Source: a virus
IMG/VR virus record: IMGVR_UViG_3300037147_000155
Coordinates: 1-56,836 of that record
Direction: 5' to 3' (one strand)
DNA length: 56,836 nucleotides
How positions within the stretch are numbered: the first letter of the stretch is position 1; the number at the start of each line of letters is the position of its first letter. Under the pieces are notes generated by a model. It searched no databases. It was not told where the DNA came from and saw nothing but the letters and a program-made list of their open reading frames with translations. The translations under genes were made by a program, and so were the position numbers. Positions 39,148-55,725 of this stretch are shown one piece after another.

Positions 39148-39332
39148 TGATTCTGCCCCTGCTGCCAGTTGGTGCCAGCCTCCAGCCTGTGGACCTTAGT
39201 CTGCAGATCGACCACCTGTTGCTGCAACACCTTGATGGCCTGATGCAGCAGCCCATCGCTGTGATTGAGCTGCTCGCAGACCTTGACGAGATCTCGTAGG
39301 GGCTCATTTACTGTTGCGTATCCTTCAGCCAT
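39144..39332 (-). CDS. small coiled-coil protein (62 aa)
   Basis: It begins MAEGYATVNEPLRDLVKVCE and continues with a coiled coil (LHQAIKVLQQQVVDLQTKVH). The short dimerising helix lies directly after the DNA polymerase gene with an 8-base overlap. It may be a polymerase accessory or regulatory peptide. The start is supported only by overlap. Confidence 0.55.
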   Translation of the reverse strand: MAEGYATVNEPLRDLVKVCEQLNHSDGLLHQAIKVLQQQVVDLQTKVHRLEAGTNWQQGQNQ

Positions 39333-40590
39333 TCCACACCTCCATTCCAGTTGGATTTGAATCAGACCTTGGAGCCCAGTTGCCCCCGACTGCGCTCATG
39401 GATATCTCCGCGCCCACGCTCAGGCCACCCAGCTCGGGGATGGGCATGGTGAATATGCGCTGCAGGGTCGCTGCGGCCGCTGCAGCCTCGCTCTGGGGGA
39501 CATAACTCAACAGGTCGTCATGGACCGGCAGAACGCACCAGGAGGCCAGCGGGGTCTGCCACAGAGCCTCGATGTAGACATCCTGGATCGCCGAGGCCGT
39601 GCTCTGAGGCAGGAACGCTATGGCCCTCTTGGCGTCGTCGCCATTGGGCTCCCACCCTTGAGTCCTGCGATTGTAGTTGAACACATGGAAGAATCTGTGC
39701 CGGAAGCCAAAGGGATTCAGCAGGGAGCGATTAGGCGGGCCAGCCATGGTCAGCACCTGCCTCCACCAGCGCACGATGTCTTGGCCGGGCTCGGACGCCA
39801 AGTACACGTTCTGCAGCCTCCGTGCGTGGGCCACCGACTCGAAATCATCGGGGTACTCCTCGAACATCCGCTCGGGGGTGCCGCGATAGTTACTAAGATG
39901 CACAACTCTTTTAGCTGTCTCGCGGCTGGGCTTGTCGTAACGATGCTTGGCTTCTTGGCAGGCTGTCCTCAATGCTGCATCATCGAGGTGAAGATCAATC
40001 GCCTCATTATGGACCACGCTATTAAACCAGTCGTGAACGCCAGCCTTGGCCAGCGCGATGTATCGAGGGGACTGAGCGAAGTAGCCTACTAGGACTGCCT
40101 CGATCGCTGAGCTGTCACAAGCCATGATGACGTGGCCGGGCGGGGCGATGACCATCCTACGAAACTCGTCTGCGAGAGCCGACCTCTTAGGAATATTTTG
40201 GGCGTTTATGTTCCGGCAGGATTTCCTCCACGTACTCGGATGGTGCCCGATCGTGTAGTGGATGCGATTGTTTGCATCCAACTTCCACTTATAGGTCGAG
40301 ATCATCTTCCAGCGTTCCTTGCACGCGAGTACTTTCGCGAAGACGGGATACTTGCGGGCCGCCTTGAGCAGGAACTTTTTTTCTGTTGAGAGCGCGTTCT
40401 CATCATCGCTGTCTTTACGATGAGGGAGTCGCACGTTGAAGTGAGCCGCCAACGATTGAACTTCTAAATAGCTATCGGGATTGAAGTCGCAGACCTTGAC
40501 ATATTTGTTGGGCAAGGGAGGACGTTTGGCGCGAGGCTTCTTCACTGGGGCGCTGTCCAGCTCAGTCAGCAGGGTATCGATGTCAGACAA
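39325..40590 (-). CDS. family A DNA polymerase, polymerase domain only
   Basis: A 421-residue product. Thumb/palm features are YKWKLDANNRIHYTIGHHPS then RNINAQNIPK, motif A MACDSSAIEAVLVGYFA (Asp then E), motif B RETAKRVVHLSNYRGTPERM, and motif C VLPVHDDLLS (catalytic Asp pair). Motif A has ACDSS for the usual DYSQ, and motif B is unusual. There is no 3'-5' exonuclease here; it is in the upstream gene. The start is TTG with an 8-base overlap, so the two subunits may be made together. Confidence 0.85.
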   Translation of the reverse strand: MSDIDTLLTELDSAPVKKPRAKRPPLPNKYVKVCDFNPDSYLEVQSLAAHFNVRLPHRKDSDDENALSTEKKFLLKAARKYPVFAKVLACKERWKMISTYKWKLDANNRIHYTIGHHPSTWRKSCRNINAQNIPKRSALADEFRRMVIAPPGHVIMACDSSAIEAVLVGYFAQSPRYIALAKAGVHDWFNSVVHNEAIDLHLDDAALRTACQEAKHRYDKPSRETAKRVVHLSNYRGTPERMFEEYPDDFESVAHARRLQNVYLASEPGQDIVRWWRQVLTMAGPPNRSLLNPFGFRHRFFHVFNYNRRTQGWEPNGDDAKRAIAFLPQSTASAIQDVYIEALWQTPLASWCVLPVHDDLLSYVPQSEAAAAAATLQRIFTMPIPELGGLSVGAEISMSAVGGNWAPRSDSNPTGMEVWNG

Positions 40591-41938
40591 TCTCAGTCAC
40601 CCCAGTGAGATCCTTAGGAGCGCGCTTCCAGTATTTGCGCTTCTTGATGCTGTCGGGGACTAGTTGTTGAAGGTCAGCGTTCGCAGCTTCCCACTCTTGG
40701 TCCAGGCGATCCATGAATGCAGCCTGATAGACTGGATCCACAAGGAGTCCTCGTTCGCCCATCACTCGCAGCGGTTCATCCATGCGGATGCAGTGGCGTT
40801 CGAAGGCGGCCCAGCGGGATTGGGCAATGAGGGTGTCGCGGGTGCCGCAGTAAACATCCATCGTCACCGCGTTGTCCATGGCGTTGTAGAAGGCGGGTCG
40901 GGCGGCTGACTGGGACTTCCAAGGAGGGCCTGCGTAATAGAAGGGGGCCACTGCGCCAAGGCCCTTGCGGAGGTCGCTCTCCAGGAAGTGCCATGCCCAC
41001 ATTGAGGACACGATGCGCGCAGGGAGGCGCAACCCAGCGTGACGCAAACGCCTACTATCGAAGTTATTATCGGCATGTTCTATCACCTCCTCACTGAGGT
41101 CGAGGGCCTCCTGCAGCAGGCCAATGTAGGGTGGCTGCCAGGGGAAGGTCACCGCGCTGCCCCGCCGCACGCTGAAGCCTGCCCTTACGATGGTCCACGA
41201 TGCCCCCTCCTGTTCGATCTCCTCCTCGTCCAGGCGATCAGACTCTGGAGTCTCAATGTCGACCACGAGAGTAGGGATACGGCCGCCATGTTCACCGTGA
41301 ATGCTTTGGCCGCTTCGTATGTAATCGCGGACGCGATCCGGTGGCGGATCAAGTAAGAGATCATATTTGCTCTCCTGATAAGTACCTTGAGCAATCGAGC
41401 GGGCCCTGTTCAGCGCAAACACCGCCGACGCGTTCAACTTTTGCTGCCCCCGTTGGATGAAGGCTGGATGAAAAGTTGGAACGGCAGGGATTCCGTACGG
41501 CGTTGCCATGACATAACCCGCGTGGGACTCGATGCCCGATACCCCACATATTCGTCGTAGCGCAACGTTGCCCATTGGCACGATGACCTTAGGCTGGGCT
41601 CGCTCGATGAGTCCATCAAGATTAGGCCTACAATGGGTGATCGCGGCTTCGGCATCTCTGAACCTCTCCGGGAAATCCATCCATTTGAGTCGCAGTGGCT
41701 TACACCAGATGGTGTTGGAGGTCATCACATTCGACCTCTCGATGCCAACCAGGCTCAGCATGCGGTTATAGGTGAAGCCAGCGGCCCCGGCGAAGTTGCG
41801 GCCTGCGGCCATTTCCTCCATCCATGGGGAGTCGCCGACCAGCAAAACTCCTGAGTCACCAGAGCCGTCAGGTTCGATAAACCTCTGACCAAGTTCTCTG
41901 TGAGGACACGTTCCACAATGAGGGCCACTTGGAATCAC
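40583..41938 (-). CDS. fusion of family 4 type uracil-DNA glycosylase and 3'-5' exonuclease
   Basis: GTG 41938 overlaps the HNH stop. Residues 5-15 (GPHCGTCPHRE) give Fe-S-type Cys. GVLLVGDSPWMEEMAAGRNF with AGAAG is the UDG motif, then TSNTIWCKPLR, ITHCRPNLDGLI and VIVPMGNVALRRI. The second half is a DnaQ-like exonuclease: TLVVDIETPE (D-x-E), EHADNNFDSRRL, AWHFLESDLRKGL and YCGTRDTLIAQSRW. In all 451 residues. The polymerase domain follows as a separate frame, so this gene plus 39325-40590 equals UDG-Exo-PolA split in two. Confidence 0.8.
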   Translation of the reverse strand: MIPSGPHCGTCPHRELGQRFIEPDGSGDSGVLLVGDSPWMEEMAAGRNFAGAAGFTYNRMLSLVGIERSNVMTSNTIWCKPLRLKWMDFPERFRDAEAAITHCRPNLDGLIERAQPKVIVPMGNVALRRICGVSGIESHAGYVMATPYGIPAVPTFHPAFIQRGQQKLNASAVFALNRARSIAQGTYQESKYDLLLDPPPDRVRDYIRSGQSIHGEHGGRIPTLVVDIETPESDRLDEEEIEQEGASWTIVRAGFSVRRGSAVTFPWQPPYIGLLQEALDLSEEVIEHADNNFDSRRLRHAGLRLPARIVSSMWAWHFLESDLRKGLGAVAPFYYAGPPWKSQSAARPAFYNAMDNAVTMDVYCGTRDTLIAQSRWAAFERHCIRMDEPLRVMGERGLLVDPVYQAAFMDRLDQEWEAANADLQQLVPDSIKKRKYWKRAPKDLTGVTEIV

Positions 41939-42384
41939 TTGAGGCCCCCATGAGGGCAGTACCCATAGAATCCCAGAGACATATTGCAGTTGTGGCACAA
42001 CACACGAAATCCTCCCCGCTTTTCACGAAGCAGCCGTCCAACATATCCAGCTCCACTAGCTACAGACTTTCTATGTTGCTTTCCCCCACCATTAACGTGA
42101 TCGATAGCCATGAACTCAAAAGTGGCCTCACCACAGCAGGCGCACTTGCCGCCATACATCTCGATCATCTTTTTTCGATTAGACTGCCGCAATTTAGACA
42201 GCTTGCTAAGGTGAGCAACGTACTTAATAGGGTCATTGCGGATAGATAGGTAATACTGGCTCTTTTTAGCCTTACCCGCAACGCTACGACTCCATTTTAG
42301 CTTGTGAGCGTTCAATCGGAAGTGATTCTCTCGATAGTACTTCTTCGACCATGCACGCCTCTTCTCTGGAGTGTTATGGGGCAT
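41935..42384 (-). CDS. HNH homing endonuclease upstream of UDG-Exo
   Basis: A 149-residue protein, a paralogue of the HNH gene at 11719-12243. The basic N-terminus (KRRAWSKKYYRENHFRLNAH) is followed by KCACCGEATFEFMAIDHVNG and LCHNCNMSLGFYGYCPHGG. Its ATG shares a base with the stop of the +1-shifted tail of the upstream gene (TAATG), and its stop overlaps the start of UDG-Exo (GTGA). The insertion is thus exactly seated between two replication genes. Confidence 0.9.
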   Translation of the reverse strand: MPHNTPEKRRAWSKKYYRENHFRLNAHKLKWSRSVAGKAKKSQYYLSIRNDPIKYVAHLSKLSKLRQSNRKKMIEMYGGKCACCGEATFEFMAIDHVNGGGKQHRKSVASGAGYVGRLLREKRGGFRVLCHNCNMSLGFYGYCPHGGLK

Positions 42385-43533: not shown

Positions 43534-43770
43534 CTAGTTGAGTTCCGAACTTTGCGGTGGGGACTGTTCGTGAGGCGCTTTCTGCCTCCTGACATCCCCA
43601 TACATGGCCAAACTCCCTTCCTCCCCTGCATCCTCGGGCAGCATCCCATGGACAACCGCTCCGATCTCGGTGCCCATCCGCGTGGCCACCTGCTCCTTGG
43701 ACTCCCCCTCCACCGTGGCTGTGATCTCGACGTAGAGGTGAACGAGGAAGCGATGGAGGATAGCCGTCAC
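43534..43770 (-). CDS. hypothetical protein (78 aa)
   Basis: It begins MTAILHRFLVHLYVEITATV. A beta-helix-beta beginning (HLYVEITATVEGESKEQVAT then RMGTEIGAVV) is followed by an acidic, unstructured tail (EDAGEEG...QSSELN). The 4-base overlap with the phosphatase gene shows co-translation. No family is recognised. Confidence 0.55.
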   Translation of the reverse strand: MTAILHRFLVHLYVEITATVEGESKEQVATRMGTEIGAVVHGMLPEDAGEEGSLAMYGDVRRQKAPHEQSPPQSSELN

Positions 43771-44252
43771 TTGGACTCCTCACTGGCGAAGCCAGTCCAG
43801 GTACGGTTCAGGCCAAAATTCAGCCAGTCGCGATATCCAAATCGCAGCGCCTCATCCATGGCGGCCTCCTTGGACCAGTCACAGCTGACCACGCGGTAGG
43901 CGGCTACCACGAGCCCTGTGCGATCCTGACCGTGCTGACAGTGGACCAGCGCTGGCTTGGGAGCCTGAGCGATCGTCTCCAGGATCACTTCGAGCGCGCC
44001 CTGGGTGATGCCGATGGCATAAATCTGCCATGCTGAGATCGGCCTGGAGATGACGCCGGTTGGCTCCAGCTCAACCGCCTCCCGCTCGTCCTCGGCGAGG
44101 CCCTCTAAGCTGATCACTGACCTAAATTGTGCTCGGATGGCCGCGAATGCTGCCTCACCGGCTGGCCTGGCGCTACGCCATAGGTCATCGGTTACGCGGG
44201 TGAATGGAGTCGGAGCTGCCAAAGGACCCTCCACCTGAGGGACTTGGACCAT
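43767..44252 (-). CDS. dual-specificity/tyrosine-type protein phosphatase
   Basis: The start at 44252 is fixed by AAGGAGACATAAA directly upstream; the longer frame has no site. The 161-residue product has DDLWRSARPAGEAAFAAIRA (the usual 'vyRs.qP' entry of DSP-like proteins), SVISLEGLAEDE and the signature VHCQHGQDRTGLVV (Cys105, Arg111 of C-x5-R). The general acid would be an Asp/Glu near 70-75. In a phage it may act on host phospho-proteins, nucleotides or phosphoinositols. Confidence 0.8.
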   Translation of the reverse strand: MVQVPQVEGPLAAPTPFTRVTDDLWRSARPAGEAAFAAIRAQFRSVISLEGLAEDEREAVELEPTGVISRPISAWQIYAIGITQGALEVILETIAQAPKPALVHCQHGQDRTGLVVAAYRVVSCDWSKEAAMDEALRFGYRDWLNFGLNRTWTGFASEESK

Positions 44253-44253
44253 T

Positions 44254-44622
44254 TTATGTCTCCTTGGGAGCCGCTCTCCATTTCCCCGGTTTCGCAGGTT
44301 CAATTCCTGATTTCAGGATGTAATGACAAGCGGCGCATGTAATCCAACCTTCGTCCTTCATCGACACTTCAAATGAGGTACCCTCGCCACATCGGGGACA
44401 GGGATATGAACAACTGTTAATGACCAAAAACTGACGGAACGTAAGCTGATTCGTAGGAGTGGGCGCTATGTTCCCGCCTGCCATCGCCCACCACTCCGCG
44501 AATTCAACAAACAGATGGATGTTGGAATAGGTTCGCCAATCCCTGCCAGTTTCCTCGCAAAACGACTGCCATTGTCCCTGCTCGCTTACGTCCTCTGGCT
44601 TGCTCGCTCGCTCATCGGTCAT
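44254..44622 (-). CDS. zinc-ribbon protein (122 aa)
   Basis: The start at 44622 follows AAGGAGCCATTCG. The N-terminal half is helical (QWQSFCEETGRDWRTYSNIH; FVEFAEWWAMAGG). The second half carries YPCPRCGEGTSFEVSMKDEG and TCAACHYILK, a classical C-x2-C...C-x2-C zinc ribbon. It overlaps the upstream lipoprotein gene by 4 bases (ATGA) and lies two bases before the phosphatase. The role is unknown; a nucleic-acid-binding or protein-docking factor. Confidence 0.65.
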   Translation of the reverse strand: MTDERASKPEDVSEQGQWQSFCEETGRDWRTYSNIHLFVEFAEWWAMAGGNIAPTPTNQLTFRQFLVINSCSYPCPRCGEGTSFEVSMKDEGWITCAACHYILKSGIEPAKPGKWRAAPKET

Positions 44623-48615: not shown

Positions 48616-48727
48616 TTGTTCTCCGATGCTCCCTTTCCAGCTTGACCAGCCGCCTGATGATGATGCCGATGGTCATCGACATGACTATGCTTGCGGCCGT
48701 GTTTGCGACTAGGATTGTTCCTACCAC
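48602..48727 (-). CDS. possible 41-residue membrane protein
   Basis: GTG 48727 opens a frame with a hydrophobic segment (MVGTILVANTAASIVMSMTI) and a charged end (RRLVKLEREHRRTN). It overlaps the nuclease gene's stop and the start of the next gene. The ribosome binding site is weak (GAGATCGCA), but the hydrophobic-then-basic pattern is protein-like. Confidence 0.4.
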   Translation of the reverse strand: MVGTILVANTAASIVMSMTIGIIIRRLVKLEREHRRTNEPT

Positions 48728-50013
48728 TGCGATCTCAAGTGAGGTCGTTCGCTAAACTCCTGTGGATGGTTGGCCGACCTGGCCCGGAAGCCATTGCCAG
48801 CCAGGTCATCCCTGGCCACGCCATGGCAAATCTCGAACGCCATACACTTGGTGGGCCAGACACAGTTGCCCTCTGCCGTGCTCATGGGGAACCATTTGTC
48901 GAGGAGGTCCTCACGAGTGACAGTGTGAGTGTCGTCAGAGTCATCGACCTCGTTCAGCTCGTTGAGGAAATCGCGGTGTTCGCGTATGTCGACCTCGCGG
49001 GGCAGCGCCTGGCGCTTCCAGCGTTCGACTTCGTAGGGTGACCTGAGAATGGCTGGCAACTCCACAAATTGCTCCTCCAGCAGGGAACGGTCAGCCACAG
49101 CGAGATACGATATCCAGCCGCTGATGCCACCGAGGCGCTCGGTGACAGGTGCCTTCCTGACTCCGCTGAGCCTGTGGTTCGCGCCGCCAGCGCATCGCTT
49201 CCCCCTGCCCATCTCGTGGGGCGCTGTGCATTGCCACTCATACCTCGCATACCAGGCGTCGTCCATGCCCGGCCCCTCGGCTTCGCGCTTCCAGGCCCAC
49301 AGCAAGGGAGAGTTTGACCAGTGAAACTTTCCAGGGCCGACGTTTGGCCCTAGGTCGCGCTCATAGTCGCTGCGGCTCCCTTTCAGCAGGCCAGCGATGA
49401 TCGTGCCTGCCACTGGCTCGCCCAGCGTCGACTCCACTGCGGCGGCCTCGGAGAAAGTTTGCATGTCAAAACGCCACTTGGTGCGCCATTTGTCATCGAC
49501 CCGCGATGCTGTCTTAAGGTTGAGGATGAATAGGGAGCGATCGGCCTTCCTTCGTATCACGATGTCTGGGCGACTGAGTTGCCTGATCGTGCGGCCACCG
49601 ACGACCCAGTCCACGCTCATCTCGCGTTCGATAGCTATGACCTCGTTGGCGTCCAGCAGCGGGGCCAGCCTGACCGCTGCCCACCCACGCACCAGTGCCT
49701 CCATGAGGTCAGCCCCCTCAGCCACATCTAACTCGGGGTCGAGTGACTGCTTGTAGACCGAGATTGGCCCCTCGCGCCGAGCTGCCATGATGGTCTCCCT
49801 ACCGACCGCTACTGCCTCATTTATACTGCCAGGGGCCGTAAGGAGGTGCTCGATGGCATCATGCGTCGCGGTGCCAATGAGGGGATCCAGCCACTGGCCA
49901 GCCTGTTCGATGCCCACGCCGTCGTGTTCGTAGTGCCAATAGCGGTAGCGCATACACTTTTCGGCAGCGGTGACCCTCGATCGATCGATGGCTATGATGG
50001 GCAGGTCGCTCAT
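48721..50013 (-). CDS. PD-(D/E)XK superfamily nuclease (RecB/Cas4-like)
   Basis: A 430-residue product. SRVTAAEKCMRYRYWHYEHD and TATHDAIEHLL open a RecB-type nuclease (first Cys and the H-D/E-x-x-H-x-like region). The core is RPDIVIRRKADRSLFILNLK then TAS: the D...N-L-K form of the PD-(D/E)xK site with Asn in place of the usual Glu/Asp. A pair CVWPTKCMAFEIC near the C-terminus gives three Cys, so a Cas4-like Fe-S site is possible. It probably processes phage DNA ends in recombination. Confidence 0.75.
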   Translation of the reverse strand: MSDLPIIAIDRSRVTAAEKCMRYRYWHYEHDGVGIEQAGQWLDPLIGTATHDAIEHLLTAPGSINEAVAVGRETIMAARREGPISVYKQSLDPELDVAEGADLMEALVRGWAAVRLAPLLDANEVIAIEREMSVDWVVGGRTIRQLSRPDIVIRRKADRSLFILNLKTASRVDDKWRTKWRFDMQTFSEAAAVESTLGEPVAGTIIAGLLKGSRSDYERDLGPNVGPGKFHWSNSPLLWAWKREAEGPGMDDAWYARYEWQCTAPHEMGRGKRCAGGANHRLSGVRKAPVTERLGGISGWISYLAVADRSLLEEQFVELPAILRSPYEVERWKRQALPREVDIREHRDFLNELNEVDDSDDTHTVTREDLLDKWFPMSTAEGNCVWPTKCMAFEICHGVARDDLAGNGFRARSANHPQEFSERPHLRSQW

Positions 50014-51669: not shown

Positions 51670-52002
51670 TCAAACTCTGCTCTCGCGCTCCCTCTCCCAC
51701 TCCGCACGGGCTCGCGCCAGCTCGGATTCGACAATAGGTATAATCTTGTCCGCATAATCAAAGCATGTACATTCATAGCCTTGAGCTATTACCCTCTCCC
51801 AATTTCCGTAATCGCTACCACATAATCCGCCTTGGTGCAATTCCTTCGCCAACAGCTCCCGCAGCCCGCTCCCCGCCTCTGAGGGCGCAGATTCGCGCCC
51901 TGGTTGACCAGCTACCTTCCCACAGCTGAGCCACTCCCCCTTCCCTTCAGTCTCTGGGATAGGGGAGTAGCAGGCCTTGGTGTGCTTATGCGTCTCAGAC
52001 AC
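51670..52002 (-). CDS. hypothetical protein (110 aa), end of the Ubl operon
   Basis: GTG start after AAGGAGGCCAATC, overlapping the upstream gene. The N-terminus MSETHKHTKACYSPIPETEG is followed by a helical region (GLRELLAKELHQGGLCGSDY), then NWERVIAQGYECTCFDYADK and a charged helix to the end. Several Cys. It may be related to the small phage protein upstream in function. No family is recognised. Confidence 0.6.
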   Translation of the reverse strand: MSETHKHTKACYSPIPETEGKGEWLSCGKVAGQPGRESAPSEAGSGLRELLAKELHQGGLCGSDYGNWERVIAQGYECTCFDYADKIIPIVESELARARAEWERERESRV

Positions 52003-52282
52003 GATTGGCCTCCTTCGACCTGGCGAAAATCGCTGCCTTCTCCACGATCTCCTCCATGAGGAGCATGCAAATGGAGCACTCCATCGCGGATGGCTCAGCG
52101 TCGTGGCGGTTGCGGTGGAGGACGAGGTGGGCGCTTAGGTCATATTGTTTCGCTAGGCGATCGCGTAGGCGCTCGGCGTCGAAGCGGTCCAGGTTATGGC
52201 CCACACAGCACCATGCCGCTGGAGTGTTGGCTACCGGGTCCGCGGGCTCCCAGATAATCACTGCTGCGATTGGTTCGAGCAT
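51995..52282 (-). CDS. hypothetical protein (95 aa) in the Ubl operon
   Basis: The start overlaps the JAB stop (TGATG) and has AAGGAGGCAGCTG. MLEPIAAVIIWEPADPVANT opens a strand, and residues 25-60 form helices (DRFDAERLRDRLAKQYDLSA). A C-x2-C pair lies near the end (MECSICMLLME). A small domain following the JAB protease may be accessory to the conjugation system, but no known family is seen. Confidence 0.6.
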   Translation of the reverse strand: MLEPIAAVIIWEPADPVANTPAAWCCVGHNLDRFDAERLRDRLAKQYDLSAHLVLHRNRHDAEPSAMECSICMLLMEEIVEKAAIFARSKEANRV

Positions 52283-53184
52283 CAGCTGCCTCCTTTACCG
52301 GTGTGATAGCCATTGTAGCTATCAAATGACATACTGTCATAGATGGCATCGACGGCCGCGGCGTGATCGCTGCCCGCTGCCTCGCCATAGCCTGCCAGGT
52401 TGGCCGCTGGCTTGATGGCCTCCTTGAGTTGGTCGCGATAGGTGTCGGCCGCCCTGATGCCCACTAGGATAACCTTGCCATCAGCCCGGCTGAATCGTCC
52501 ACACTCCAGCTTGATGCGCATGCGACACTTTGACTCTCCCTTCGCATTGATCACGATCTCAATGGGCCAGTTGGCATGGGCCTCGTCGGTCGCAGACCAA
52601 AACGCGCCCATCTGGACGTGACTGTGGATGGCGGCGATCGTGCCCGGCCTGACACGGAACTGGTCGTCTGGCATCTCTACGTGAGCGCCAGAGGCTGATT
52701 GAGGTGGAAAGTACATCTCGCGTATCGCCGCCCGGCCAGTGGACTGATTGAGGTCTCCGATGAGATATGCCATCCATTCGGTGTCAAACTCATCTGCGAG
52801 TTCAGTGCAGGCTCGGTACATATCAAGTGGCATCTCCACTTGTGGCTCGGCGGCGATGGGGCAGCCCTTGACGTCGGCCACCGGGCAGGTCCAGTCAGTG
52901 TCAGGCGGCCGCGTGGCTATGGGAACGATGACTGTAGTGGAATGGTCGCTTCCACTACGGCTGCCCATCCTGTCGCCGAACCTCTGCTGACCATTGCGCT
53001 GCCAGTCCCTGTGGGATGCGACTGACTGGCTGCCCTGGCTGCCCTCTGTGATATAGTTGGCGTTATGTGCAGCGACTGCATTAGATATGTCCTCGATCCC
53101 TGGCGCTGGCCTCTCGTCGACCAGGATCCAGTTATCGCCTGCCAGGATCTCCTTTATTTTGCGCTCACTACGTTTGCGTCCCAT
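52282..53184 (-). CDS. JAB/MPN (JAMM) metalloprotease
   Basis: The start at 53184 follows AAGGGAGGACTTAGCC. The 300-residue product has an N-terminal 120-residue region, then a JAB domain: Glu136 in EWMAYLIGDL, then AAIHSHVQMGAFWSATDEAH, where His187, His189, Ser197 and Asp200 complete E...H-x-H-x7-S-x2-D exactly. This binds zinc and hydrolyses isopeptide or peptide bonds after a Ubl C-terminal Gly in known families. It follows the E1 gene by 49 bases and belongs to the Ubl cassette. Confidence 0.85.
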   Translation of the reverse strand: MGRKRSERKIKEILAGDNWILVDERPAPGIEDISNAVAAHNANYITEGSQGSQSVASHRDWQRNGQQRFGDRMGSRSGSDHSTTVIVPIATRPPDTDWTCPVADVKGCPIAAEPQVEMPLDMYRACTELADEFDTEWMAYLIGDLNQSTGRAAIREMYFPPQSASGAHVEMPDDQFRVRPGTIAAIHSHVQMGAFWSATDEAHANWPIEIVINAKGESKCRMRIKLECGRFSRADGKVILVGIRAADTYRDQLKEAIKPAANLAGYGEAAGSDHAAAVDAIYDSMSFDSYNGYHTGKGGS

Positions 53185-53233
53185 GGCTAAGTCCTCCCTT
53201 GGGGGCAAAGTACGCCCCCTGTTGCGATTGCTG

Positions 53234-53878
53234 CTAAACGGCCACATATTGATTCACTCGCAGACCAGAGTCAGACCAGTCGACGCGAAAGGTGTCTCGG
53301 ACTGGTAAGCCTAGTAGAATGTAGTAGATAGCAATGGATGCAGCCATTGTGCATGGCCCAACGTGGACCGGCACGCTCGCATACCCTGGCTCATTCTCGG
53401 CCTCGGTCGACCATTCGGCTGGACTGCCGGTGACGGTCAGACCGTGACCATCTGCGCCTAGCTCAACGTAGCGTCCATGATAGTGCCCTCCTGCCCTCCC
53501 TACGGCCTCGTAGACCATCCTACGGCTACGCAGCGAGTCAGTTGACACGATTACCCTATTGGCTGACCTGATGGCTTCAGAATGCCACTCAGGGTCAAAA
53601 TGGCCATGCGCGTTTATGGTGACATCGGGCCTGGCACGTCTGATCAACCCAGCCAGCGCGATTGACTTCGGCAGTCCGATGGCTGCTGAGTCAAAGGGTA
53701 GGCGATTCAGGTTATGCCCCTCGATCAGATCACCGTCAAAGAGTTCCAGCTGGCGGACACCGGCCAGGCCAAGGAAATATCCGCACCAACTTCCGATGCC
53801 GCCGCAGCCCACTACCAGCACGGTCTGGTCCTGGATAATGCCCAACGACTCTTGCCTGCTATACGTGTTGTCAGTCAT
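53234..53878 (-). CDS. ThiF/E1-like adenylyltransferase
   Basis: A 214-residue product with AGGAGGACGAA before the ATG. Residues 19-40 have VLVVGCGGIGSWCGYFLGLA, the nucleotide-binding G-x-G-G-x-G. LFDGDLIEGHNLNRLPF is the D-x-D...N-x-N-R core, PKSIALAGLI gives the conserved Lys, and VIVSTDSLRSRRMVYEA the conserved Asp/Arg region. Cys176 in VGPCTMAA is a possible thioester site. E1-type enzymes adenylate the C-terminal Gly of a Ubl. Its overlap with the upstream gene shows co-translation. Confidence 0.85.
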   Translation of the reverse strand: MTDNTYSRQESLGIIQDQTVLVVGCGGIGSWCGYFLGLAGVRQLELFDGDLIEGHNLNRLPFDSAAIGLPKSIALAGLIRRARPDVTINAHGHFDPEWHSEAIRSANRVIVSTDSLRSRRMVYEAVGRAGGHYHGRYVELGADGHGLTVTGSPAEWSTEAENEPGYASVPVHVGPCTMAASIAIYYILLGLPVRDTFRVDWSDSGLRVNQYVAV

Positions 53879-54123
53879 TTCGTCCTCCTGCGACCCTTAA
53901 CCCTCTTGGCCCGCTTGATTCGCTTATGGGTACCTGGCTTACTCAGCTTCTCCAAGGTGTTGGCTCTGCGCCGGCCCATCATCTCCAAGATATCCAGGAA
54001 TCTCTGCGCCAGCTCATATAGGTCCCTAGTCTGCTGCCTGTCAGCAGCATCTGCTGCCATGAGTATGTCAGGATCATCGATGTCATGCATACCCCACGTA
54101 TATCTATCCTCACTATCCATCAT
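53875..54123 (-). CDS. small protein of the Ubl operon with a very basic tail
   Basis: GGGAGGACT precedes tandem ATGs (54123 and 54120). It begins MMDSEDRYTWGMHDIDDPDI, acidic, then a helix (QQTRDLYELAQRFLDILEMM) and a C-terminus of Lys and Arg (THKRIKRAKRVKGRRRTK). It could bind nucleic acid or membrane or serve as a Ubl acceptor (many Lys). This is inference from position and composition. Confidence 0.6.
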   Translation of the reverse strand: MMDSEDRYTWGMHDIDDPDILMAADAADRQQTRDLYELAQRFLDILEMMGRRRANTLEKLSKPGTHKRIKRAKRVKGRRRTK

Positions 54124-54146
54124 AGTCCTCCCTTTGGGCAGCCTGA

Positions 54147-55388
54147 CTACCTGCCCCAGATAACGCCTGCGGCCTCCCTGGCCACCTCTCGTGCCCCAAA
54201 CTCGAATGCATTAGTGGCATCCATGCCCTCGTCCCGCCAATGGTCATACCAATCCCTTACTCCCTGTGGACAACTCACCTTGACCTCTGGCGACCAGTCG
54301 CTCATGGACACGAGTAGGCTACTCAGGTTGACCTCCTTGTAGGCGCGATTGATGCAGGCGACCACCCTGGTCAGGCTAGCCTGGTCAACAATCGCCGCAG
54401 GCAATCCCTGTGGCTGACAGCAGATCGATCCATGGTCCGCATGGGGCAACTTTGGACTCCATTCGGCTATCTTGGACTGATTGAGTTCAAACGCCCCCGT
54501 GGATGGCATAAACGTAATCCAGATCCAGGGATAGATTGGCTCAGCTTGCTCAGCGCTCCATTCGATCTCACAGACTCTATTGCGAACCATTTCGTCGTCA
54601 GGGGTAGGATCTTCAAAGCCATTAGCCCGCTCCCAAACCTCCCACCCAGGATAGCTGAATCGCGTCGGCTGATAGCTGAGGCGCTGCAGGACCTCAATGG
54701 CTCCATCGATTGACCTCGACTGCCTAATGGCGACTCCCTGTCCATTGAGCCACCCCGGCACAGCGAATACATTACGCGTGGCCAACCTGGCTGCCTCGGC
54801 TGCTATCTGCTGCTCCCTGCGGAACGCAGCCCGCTCAGCCTCCACTTGCTGCCTGACTATCCTCGCCTGCGTGGTCGCGGCCGCAATCATGGCATCTCTC
54901 TCCCTGCGTATGGCCTCGGCTGCCTTCCTGCGCAGATTGACCAGCAGCTTGCCACCCGTGGCGGAAGGCTCGCCACTGGACATCAGCCTGAACGTGCGGC
55001 CGCCAATGGTTAGATATCCTGGCTCGGCGGCAGTTAGCCGACTGATGACCTCCTCGTCTGACTCCAATGTGGCCACCGCGCCATTGTCATCCTGCCCTAC
55101 CAACTCCGCTGCTATCTCACTCACATAGCTACGGATAGCGTCAGCCAGGATAGCCGGCGACAGCGATGGCATACCAGCGTCATAGTTGGCCCCTAGATAA
55201 TTAGCCAGCGACCTCGCCCGCTGGCGATTGATGCTCATATACCCACGGTGCGGCCCAGGCAGATAGCCACGGAAGGCGACCATTTTGGTATTCCCTACCT
55301 GCTCAGTGACATCCCTATCGCCAATGGTTACATGGAGCTGTAGCGCCCGTGTGCCCTGCGGTGATAACTCTACCCTTATCTCGTCCAT
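54147..55388 (-). CDS. coiled-coil protein with E2-like C-terminal domain
   Basis: The start at 55388 follows AGGGAGGACATCG. The 413-residue product has an N-terminal alpha/beta part. A charged coiled coil lies near residues 140-190 (RRKAAEAIRRERDAMIAAAT; RQQVEAERAAFRREQQIAAE). A C-terminal domain follows whose strands (IYPWIWITFMPSTGAF) precede LPHADHGSICCQPQGLPAAI. The form P-H-x-D-H-G-x-I-C(C) is the active-site loop pattern of ubiquitin E2/RWD-like proteins, Cys323/324. Together with E1, JAB and Ubl genes this supports an E2-like role, not yet known from experiment. Confidence 0.65.
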   Translation of the reverse strand: MDEIRVELSPQGTRALQLHVTIGDRDVTEQVGNTKMVAFRGYLPGPHRGYMSINRQRARSLANYLGANYDAGMPSLSPAILADAIRSYVSEIAAELVGQDDNGAVATLESDEEVISRLTAAEPGYLTIGGRTFRLMSSGEPSATGGKLLVNLRRKAAEAIRRERDAMIAAATTQARIVRQQVEAERAAFRREQQIAAEAARLATRNVFAVPGWLNGQGVAIRQSRSIDGAIEVLQRLSYQPTRFSYPGWEVWERANGFEDPTPDDEMVRNRVCEIEWSAEQAEPIYPWIWITFMPSTGAFELNQSKIAEWSPKLPHADHGSICCQPQGLPAAIVDQASLTRVVACINRAYKEVNLSSLLVSMSDWSPEVKVSCPQGVRDWYDHWRDEGMDATNAFEFGAREVAREAAGVIWGR

Positions 55389-55400
55389 CGATGTCCTCCC

Positions 55401-55447
55401 TGGGATAGTGAGCATCCCACTGAGGGGACAATATAAAATTATCCCCT
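55401..55447 (-). other. two hairpins between the Ubl and E2-like genes
   Basis: AGGGGACAAT (55423-55432) pairs with ATTATCCCCT (55438-55447), 10 bp with one G-U and a 5-base loop. TGGGAT (55401-55406) pairs with ATCCCA (55414-55419). Such tandem hairpins may allow different levels of the Ubl and E2 mRNAs by processing or attenuation. Confidence 0.5.
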
Positions 55448-55470
55448 CTAGCGAAGCTCTCTAACCGTGC

Positions 55471-55725
55471 TTAGCCTCGCGCATCCTTGGCCACCAACTC
55501 AACCACTGTGGCCCTCAGAGCCGCCAGCGTCTGACTGCCTGCGCTGACCTCCGCCTTCGATCCATTGACCAGCACATTGAAGGTCCGTAGGCCATGATTG
55601 GCCGAATACTCCTTGGCCACGTCGGCCAGGGTGTCCTCGCCATCCGCCGACCCGACAGTTTCTCCATTAACTTTAATCGTTACTGATGGATAGCCGCCAT
55701 TCCCTGCTTCCCATACGTCTGTCAT
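55471..55725 (-). CDS. ubiquitin-like (beta-grasp) candidate ending in Gly
   Basis: An 84-residue protein after GGGGAGGACTAGCT. SVTIKVNGETVGSADGEDTL, then a helix ADVAKEYSANHGLRT, then strand FNVLVNGSKAEV and a last helix or strand. Strand-turn-strand, helix, strand is the beta-grasp order, and the tight 'KVNG' and 'LVNG' turns are typical. The C-terminus is KDARG with no residues after Gly, ready for adenylation. Paired with E1, E2-like and JAB genes it is very probably a Ubl, though fold prediction is needed. Confidence 0.65.
   Translation of the reverse strand: MTDVWEAGNGGYPSVTIKVNGETVGSADGEDTLADVAKEYSANHGLRTFNVLVNGSKAEVSAGSQTLAALRATVVELVAKDARG

Follow-up and report, generated by a model that had tools for sequence, protein, structure and literature searches.

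We propose, with somewhat more confidence than doubt, that the leftward locus at positions 51995-55725 of the window is a phage's own reversible system for the conjugation of a ubiquitin-like protein (Ubl), and that phage replication proteins are its most likely targets. The first part of the proposal, namely that the cassette is a Ubl conjugation system, appears quite probable from its sequences. The second part, namely that replication proteins are the conjugation targets, is held tentatively, and more so for the window's own branch, which is without a recognisable clamp. Gene content, gene order, the Ubl fold, the catalytic residues and the synteny were established by computation.

The window, i.e. 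the whole stretch of DNA that was analysed, was a virus record of 56,836 bases, the last 126 of which repeated positions 8-133. Genes for terminase, portal, major head protein, family A DNA polymerase and a Sak4-like protein were found in it, and because of these genes and the terminal repeat the window was taken to be a real tailed phage, probably a complete one. The major capsid protein was 20-26% identical to its nearest relatives among GenBank phages (Mx8 and others). The family A DNA polymerase was divided between two overlapping open reading frames (39325-40590 and 40583-41998), both halves of which were matched by a single open reading frame in the phages L004 and L007. A tyrosine-phosphatase-like protein (PF03162, 1.5e-7) was encoded at 43767-44303, within the replication block.

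The cassette was located on the minus strand and consisted of the following genes, listed in their order:

55471-55725, minus strand: Ubl, an 84-aa beta-grasp ubiquitin-like protein (AlphaFold2 model, Foldseek, C-terminal Gly)
54147-55388, minus strand: E2-like protein, 413 aa, with an N-terminal region, a coiled coil, a C-terminal UBC-like domain with an LPH...C catalytic loop and a W motif in the C-tail
53875-54123, minus strand: small basic protein, 82 aa, with a Lys/Arg-rich C-tail
53234-53878, minus strand: E1-like ThiF-fold adenylyltransferase, 214 aa (Pfam ThiF, 8.4e-21)
52282-53247, minus strand: JAB/JAMM metalloprotease, a predicted Ubl maturase and deconjugase (Prok-JAB, 5.5e-5)
51995-52282, minus strand: 95-aa protein with conserved Cys and His, possibly Zn-binding

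The intergenic gaps along the cassette were +55, +23, -4, -14 and -1 nt, and a purine-rich ribosome site preceded most of the genes; the cassette is one tight leftward operon. An earlier note had described these open reading frames with their positions, strand and order, and all of them were found as described. Its claim of a full Ubl, E2, E1 and JAB set in a phage was supported as well, by the true phage nature of the window and by the conserved motifs. Downstream, the same leftward block contained a conserved 430-aa protein (48721-50013) that gave no family match in profile scans, the Sak4-like protein and the DNA polymerase A. This replication block was largely common to the window, L001 and L006, and partly to L008.

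The closest relative, L001, was a 51-kb phage recovered from IMG/VR by a scan with the E1. All six genes of the cassette were present in it in unchanged order, with identities to the window of 72% for the Ubl, 40% for the E2, 64% for the E1, 49% for the JAB, 43% for the 95-aa protein and 27% for the small basic protein, the last being a positional counterpart. The four core genes were found in the order Ubl-E2-E1-JAB in L004, L006, L007 and L008, which were obtained by alignment-based IMG/VR scans, and a large terminase was present on all six contigs. The earlier note had also raised the case of E1 and JAB homologues occurring without the other two genes; in the close family these genes and the other two were always kept together. 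Among GenBank phages, tblastn cut at 1e-5 or 1e-2 gave no relatives of the E1, JAB or E2, and the loose E1 matches there included crAss-like phages.

The Ubl ended in ...VELVAKDARG with a single terminal Gly, and a DVW motif was present in its N-tail. Its AlphaFold2 model, built with 23 homologues, reached a pLDDT of 84.7 (about 93 in the core) and had the element order beta-beta-alpha-beta-alpha-beta. When the model was compared with the PDB by Foldseek, ubiquitin, ISG15 and SUMO were the top matches (prob 1.0, TM about 0.6, E about 1e-3), so that the fold prediction bore out the beta-grasp candidate ending in Gly that had been suggested earlier; the match to ThiS was weak (E 0.059). The C-terminal Gly was present in 22 of the 23 homologues, the exception being the Ubl of L007, one of six in the window's branch. 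A beta-grasp fold and a C-terminal Gly that is either free or could be exposed by the JAB, as expected of a modifier, were thus present, save for the Gly of the L007 protein. The closest three ended in KDxRG, and the residues following the Gly differed among the homologues (RGN, AGI, AGR, PGVE, AGA, AGL), for which reason the JAB probably trims Ubl precursors. When the Ubl, E2 and clamp alignments were used as profiles against the sequences of the PDB, no significant match was obtained.

The E1 (214 aa) consisted of a single ThiF domain without a Cys or UFD domain and was closest to the ThiF/MoeB models. The residues R8, GCGGxG 24-29, D50, N56, R59, K71 and D114 were invariant in 26 homologues, hence the Arg, GxGGxG, DxD, N/R, Lys and Asp by which adenylation is recognised in the ThiF/MoeB/E1 superfamily were all in place. 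The GxGGxG, DxD and HNLNR motifs, noticed before in the single sequence, were conserved together with K71 and TD and did not arise by chance. No invariant catalytic Cys was found among the 26 homologues; C176 was kept in 5/6 members of the window's branch and was absent from the other branch. Since no thioester Cys is conserved in the E1, the Ubl may go straight from the adenylate to the Cys of the E2.

The E2-like open reading frame opened at 55415 (422 aa), and the inner ATG (54147-55388) was preferred as the start because the L001 homologue begins there; the residue numbers H325 and C332 refer to the 422-aa frame. LPH325...C332 was invariant in all six relatives. A P-H-x-D-H-G-x-I-C-C loop had been put forward earlier as E2-like, of which the His and the first Cys (C332) proved invariant and the second Cys did not. 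The protein thus had a catalytic Cys with a nearby His, as required of an E2, and this site was in register with the HxH..DC and HPN..C members. A model from six sequences had a mean pLDDT of 64, and its better region (~220-395) comprised strands, the active-site loop and then a helix. The best Foldseek rows for this model were E2s, but with E about 0.4 or worse. VIA-align superimposed residues about 215-382 of the model (pLDDT 64) on UBC E2s over 109-119 residues with weak Z values of 4.2-4.7; UBC E2s made up nearly all of the globular matches, and the higher-scoring rows were coiled-coil matches. It is likely, judging from these models, that the C-terminal half has a UBC fold. In hhalign, the E2 family of the window was related to a second phage family, E2b (P 95.2, E 2.7e-8), the two active-site residues, His and Cys, being in register, and E2b included textbook E2 loops, HPNVNDDGMVCLG and HCNLNSEGSVCLG. 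This profile-profile kinship is a stronger argument for the E2 identity than the fold matches. The idea that the C-terminus of 54147-55388 is an RWD/UBC domain was accordingly upheld in part: UBC folds were matched and the profile kinship to E2b was found, but the matches were weak.

The JAB matched Prok-JAB at 5.5e-5, slightly below the curated cut-off. Its E157, H208, H210, S218 and D221 (HxHx7SxxD) were invariant in 15 phage homologues, so the JAMM metal site (Glu plus HxHx7SxxD) pointed out earlier was intact. Because the catalytic residues of the cassette were invariant at identities as low as 20-40%, they must be kept by selection.

The 82-aa basic protein was poorly conserved, having a positional counterpart (27% identity) in L001 only and being absent in L004; a substrate, an adaptor or a DNA-binding protein are its candidate roles. 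In the 95-aa protein, C25, H29, H52, H56, H60, C69 and C72 were conserved; it was found only in the closest relative, at the same place and 43% identical, and could be a Zn-binding adaptor. Zn-finger-like Cys/His modules fused to the JAB or beside it were observed in L004 (9752-10768), in L008 (10737-12188), in the JABs of L010, L019 and L084 and in the window (51995-52282), and these recurrent modules are possibly adaptors or E3-like parts. An acidic-W motif ended the E2 in 13/14 clamp-linked members vs 25/402 other open reading frames (p 5e-14, relatedness not corrected for), a W occurred in the N-tail of 19/23 Ubls, and a W preceded the JAB domain in most JABs. Three cassette proteins share this motif at their ends, where it may serve to dock a common partner. 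The W motif at the C-terminus of the DNA polymerase (GMEVWNG) was considered as cassette-linked and dropped, as it was not kept in relatives.

The wider family comprised 57 viral E1 loci. A second branch had E2s with an HxH..DC(W)G site, and its clamp-linked gene order was gp44-like clamp loader, gp62-like clamp loader, 245-aa protein, Ubl, E2, E1 and JAB. The clamp linkage was recorded in 22 distinct contigs, 14 from the E1 loci and eight via the E2 profile (seven viral, one Thermoplasmata MAG). E1 and JAB followed where the contig continued; three short clamp-linked contigs (L091, L095, L098) showed neither, about 900 bases separated E2 from E1 in L096, and six further E2b loci (L014, L017, L018, L032, L033, L035) had no clamp nearby. 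The loader genes of L019 matched gp44/RFC at 3e-46 and gp62 (PF16790) at 5e-11. One member of the 245-aa family matched the PHROG DNA polymerase processivity factor at 5e-4, and the family aligned with the T4-like gp45 (P 90.7, E 1.2e-6); by these profile matches the protein is a distant gp45-type sliding clamp. A sliding clamp was sought in the window's branch with the 245-aa clamp profile and was not found. The clamp-linked sequences made up one supported clade (99/98) of the E1 tree, with the window's branch outside; because they form a single clade, the linkage probably arose once and was kept, and it may have been kept by operon inertia.

The full clamp-Ubl cassette of the Thermoplasmata MAG was on a contig (L084) that appears to be viral and to have been binned with the archaeon. 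A cellular source of the cassette was sought and discarded: scanning 84,980 genomes for the JAB yielded none, and the E2b scan yielded this contig only. In L013 (8228-9217 and 9224-9970), and likewise in L030, one cassette contained two tandem E2-like genes.

The catalysis, the conjugation and the target, which we infer, would be as follows. The E1 would adenylate the C-terminal Gly of the Ubl with ATP, and the E2-like protein would receive the Ubl on its Cys332, probably with no conserved E1 thioester in between. The E2-like protein would then attach the Ubl to lysines of the targets, and the JAB would trim Ubl precursors and take the Ubl off the targets. Replication proteins are proposed as the targets because of the gene neighbourhoods, namely the clamp/loader synteny of the related branch and the replication/recombination block of the window; in the clamp-linked branch the sliding clamp above all would be tagged, as PCNA is. 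In eukaryotes, ubiquitylation and SUMOylation of PCNA represent the action of Ubl machinery on a sliding clamp, and by the synteny a similar logic is possible in the phages. A more specific version, in which phages tag their own sliding clamp or replisome through an E1 that lacks a conserved Cys and passes the Ubl directly to the E2, and in which the window phage uses a variant of this system on its own replication/recombination proteins, is regarded as doubtful.

Those Ubl conjugation systems of bacteria that have been tested are known mainly as anti-phage defences, and conserved complete cassettes in phages would place Ubl tagging in viral hands. The clamp synteny offers a concrete, testable target, and the minimal E1 a simple model for the E1-to-E2 step; if true, the proposal bears on the origin of ubiquitin-type control of DNA replication. 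No description of phage-encoded Ubl cassettes of this kind was found in the open-access literature, to which the search was confined.

Bil and PRTRC had been named as parallels in the earlier note. The defining features of both were looked for and not found, hence the parallels hold as analogies only: the cassette appears from its sequences to work like the Bil and PRTRC systems, but it belongs to neither. As in BilABCD, Ubl, E2, E1 and JAB are encoded in one operon, the Bil Ubl is matured by the JAB (PMC11354881), and the JAMM site (E157, H208, H210, S218, D221) is shared. However, BilA has two Ubl domains, BilD has inactive and active adenylation domains and an 80-aa Cys domain, and BilB has a CEHH motif (PMC11354881), whereas the window encodes an 84-aa Ubl with one beta-grasp domain and a 214-aa E1 with a single ThiF domain and no Cys domain. 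In place of CEHH, with Glu/His at +6, +8 and +13 of the Cys, C332 is followed by CQPQGLPAAIVDQ, without Glu or His, and the upstream His (LPH...C) is unlike Bil. The window cassette is also phage-borne, unlike the anti-phage BilABCD.

Operon type 6d of Iyer et al. 2006 (PMC1779556) corresponds, by our own reading, to PRTRC, and shares with the window a small Ubl with a terminal Gly, a ThiF, a JAB, an E2-like protein and occurrence in mobile elements. The PRTRC models scored far below their cut-offs (TIGR03736, 15.8 bits vs 144.75; TIGR03735, 16.8 vs 101.8), the Ubl model gave no match, and a ParB-related protein, which is a PRTRC feature, was not found when the cassette proteins and their neighbours were scanned. 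Among the PRTRC proteins of Azotobacter pAcX50f only ThiF was similar (P 94.7) in hhalign of single sequences, a comparison that may miss remote kinship. The CBASS Cap2/Cap3 and 6A-MBL systems have a related E1 domain (PADLOC E1-E2 up to 5e-15; NCBIfam 6A-MBL 2e-10), yet in them E1 and E2 form one polypeptide, whereas the window has separate genes and a separate Ubl. TAPI (Ubl) and TAPK (JAB) of Lambda/T1 tail assembly are a phage Ubl with a JAB for which no E1 or E2 is described (PMC1779556); these are tail genes, whereas the window cassette lies with replication genes and has both E1 and E2.

The same conjugation chemistry could be directed at host proteins or at the phage's own virion, for take-over or for marking and protection of the virion, since bacterial relatives act in phage-host conflict (Cap2 Ubl-like conjugation in CBASS, PMC10097602; BilABCD, PMC11354881). 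We consider such targets unlikely: the cassette was not near the structural genes of the window and was joined to clamp genes in 22 relatives. The host, virion and Bil targets suggested earlier received no specific support; what the gene neighbourhoods suggest instead is an action on replication proteins.

A sulfur-carrier (ThiS/MoaD-like) or CysO/Mec-like pathway, in which the adenylate is converted to a thiocarboxylate, the product is set free by the JAB and the E2-like protein acts as a partner without catalytic activity, would agree with an E1 nearest to ThiF/MoeB models and without a conserved thioester Cys, with the weak ThiS match of the Ubl and with the known Ubl-E1-JAB sulfur operons (PMC1779556). 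It is thought improbable, given that none of the scanned proteins was recognised as belonging to sulfur metabolism, that the E2 has retained its His/Cys pair between branches with very little identity and that some members have textbook E2 loops. Counter-defence, in which for instance a competing Ubl or deconjugation by the JAB would disturb the Bil or CBASS system of the host, seems more improbable still. In its favour are the resemblance of the JAB and Ubl to Bil/CBASS parts and the distant kinship of the E1 with PADLOC E1-E2 models. However, an E1 and an E2 would be superfluous in a decoy, and all four genes are kept; they are linked to replication genes, and their sequences are far from the Bil and CBASS proteins.

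Related enzymes were observed in further viruses. In PhiCrAssBcn17 (crass-like) and Dulem virus 41 (L104, 254-4663; L105, 1218-4648), the genes between primase and uracil-DNA glycosylase included those of a JAB and a ThiF with clear kinship to the cassette enzymes of the window (hhalign P 98.6 and 99.2); beside them were a protein whose N-terminus may be a Ubl and another with HSH...C, neither with profile similarity. More distant viral E1/JAB loci were L028 (7922-9676), L031 (9141-9989), L036 (9264-9980) and L045 (1702-2475). The upstream protein of these loci had E2-like loops (HPNVSSSGQVCM, HTMYGSNVCT, HTFGSGDVCT), and most of its C-termini contained a W.
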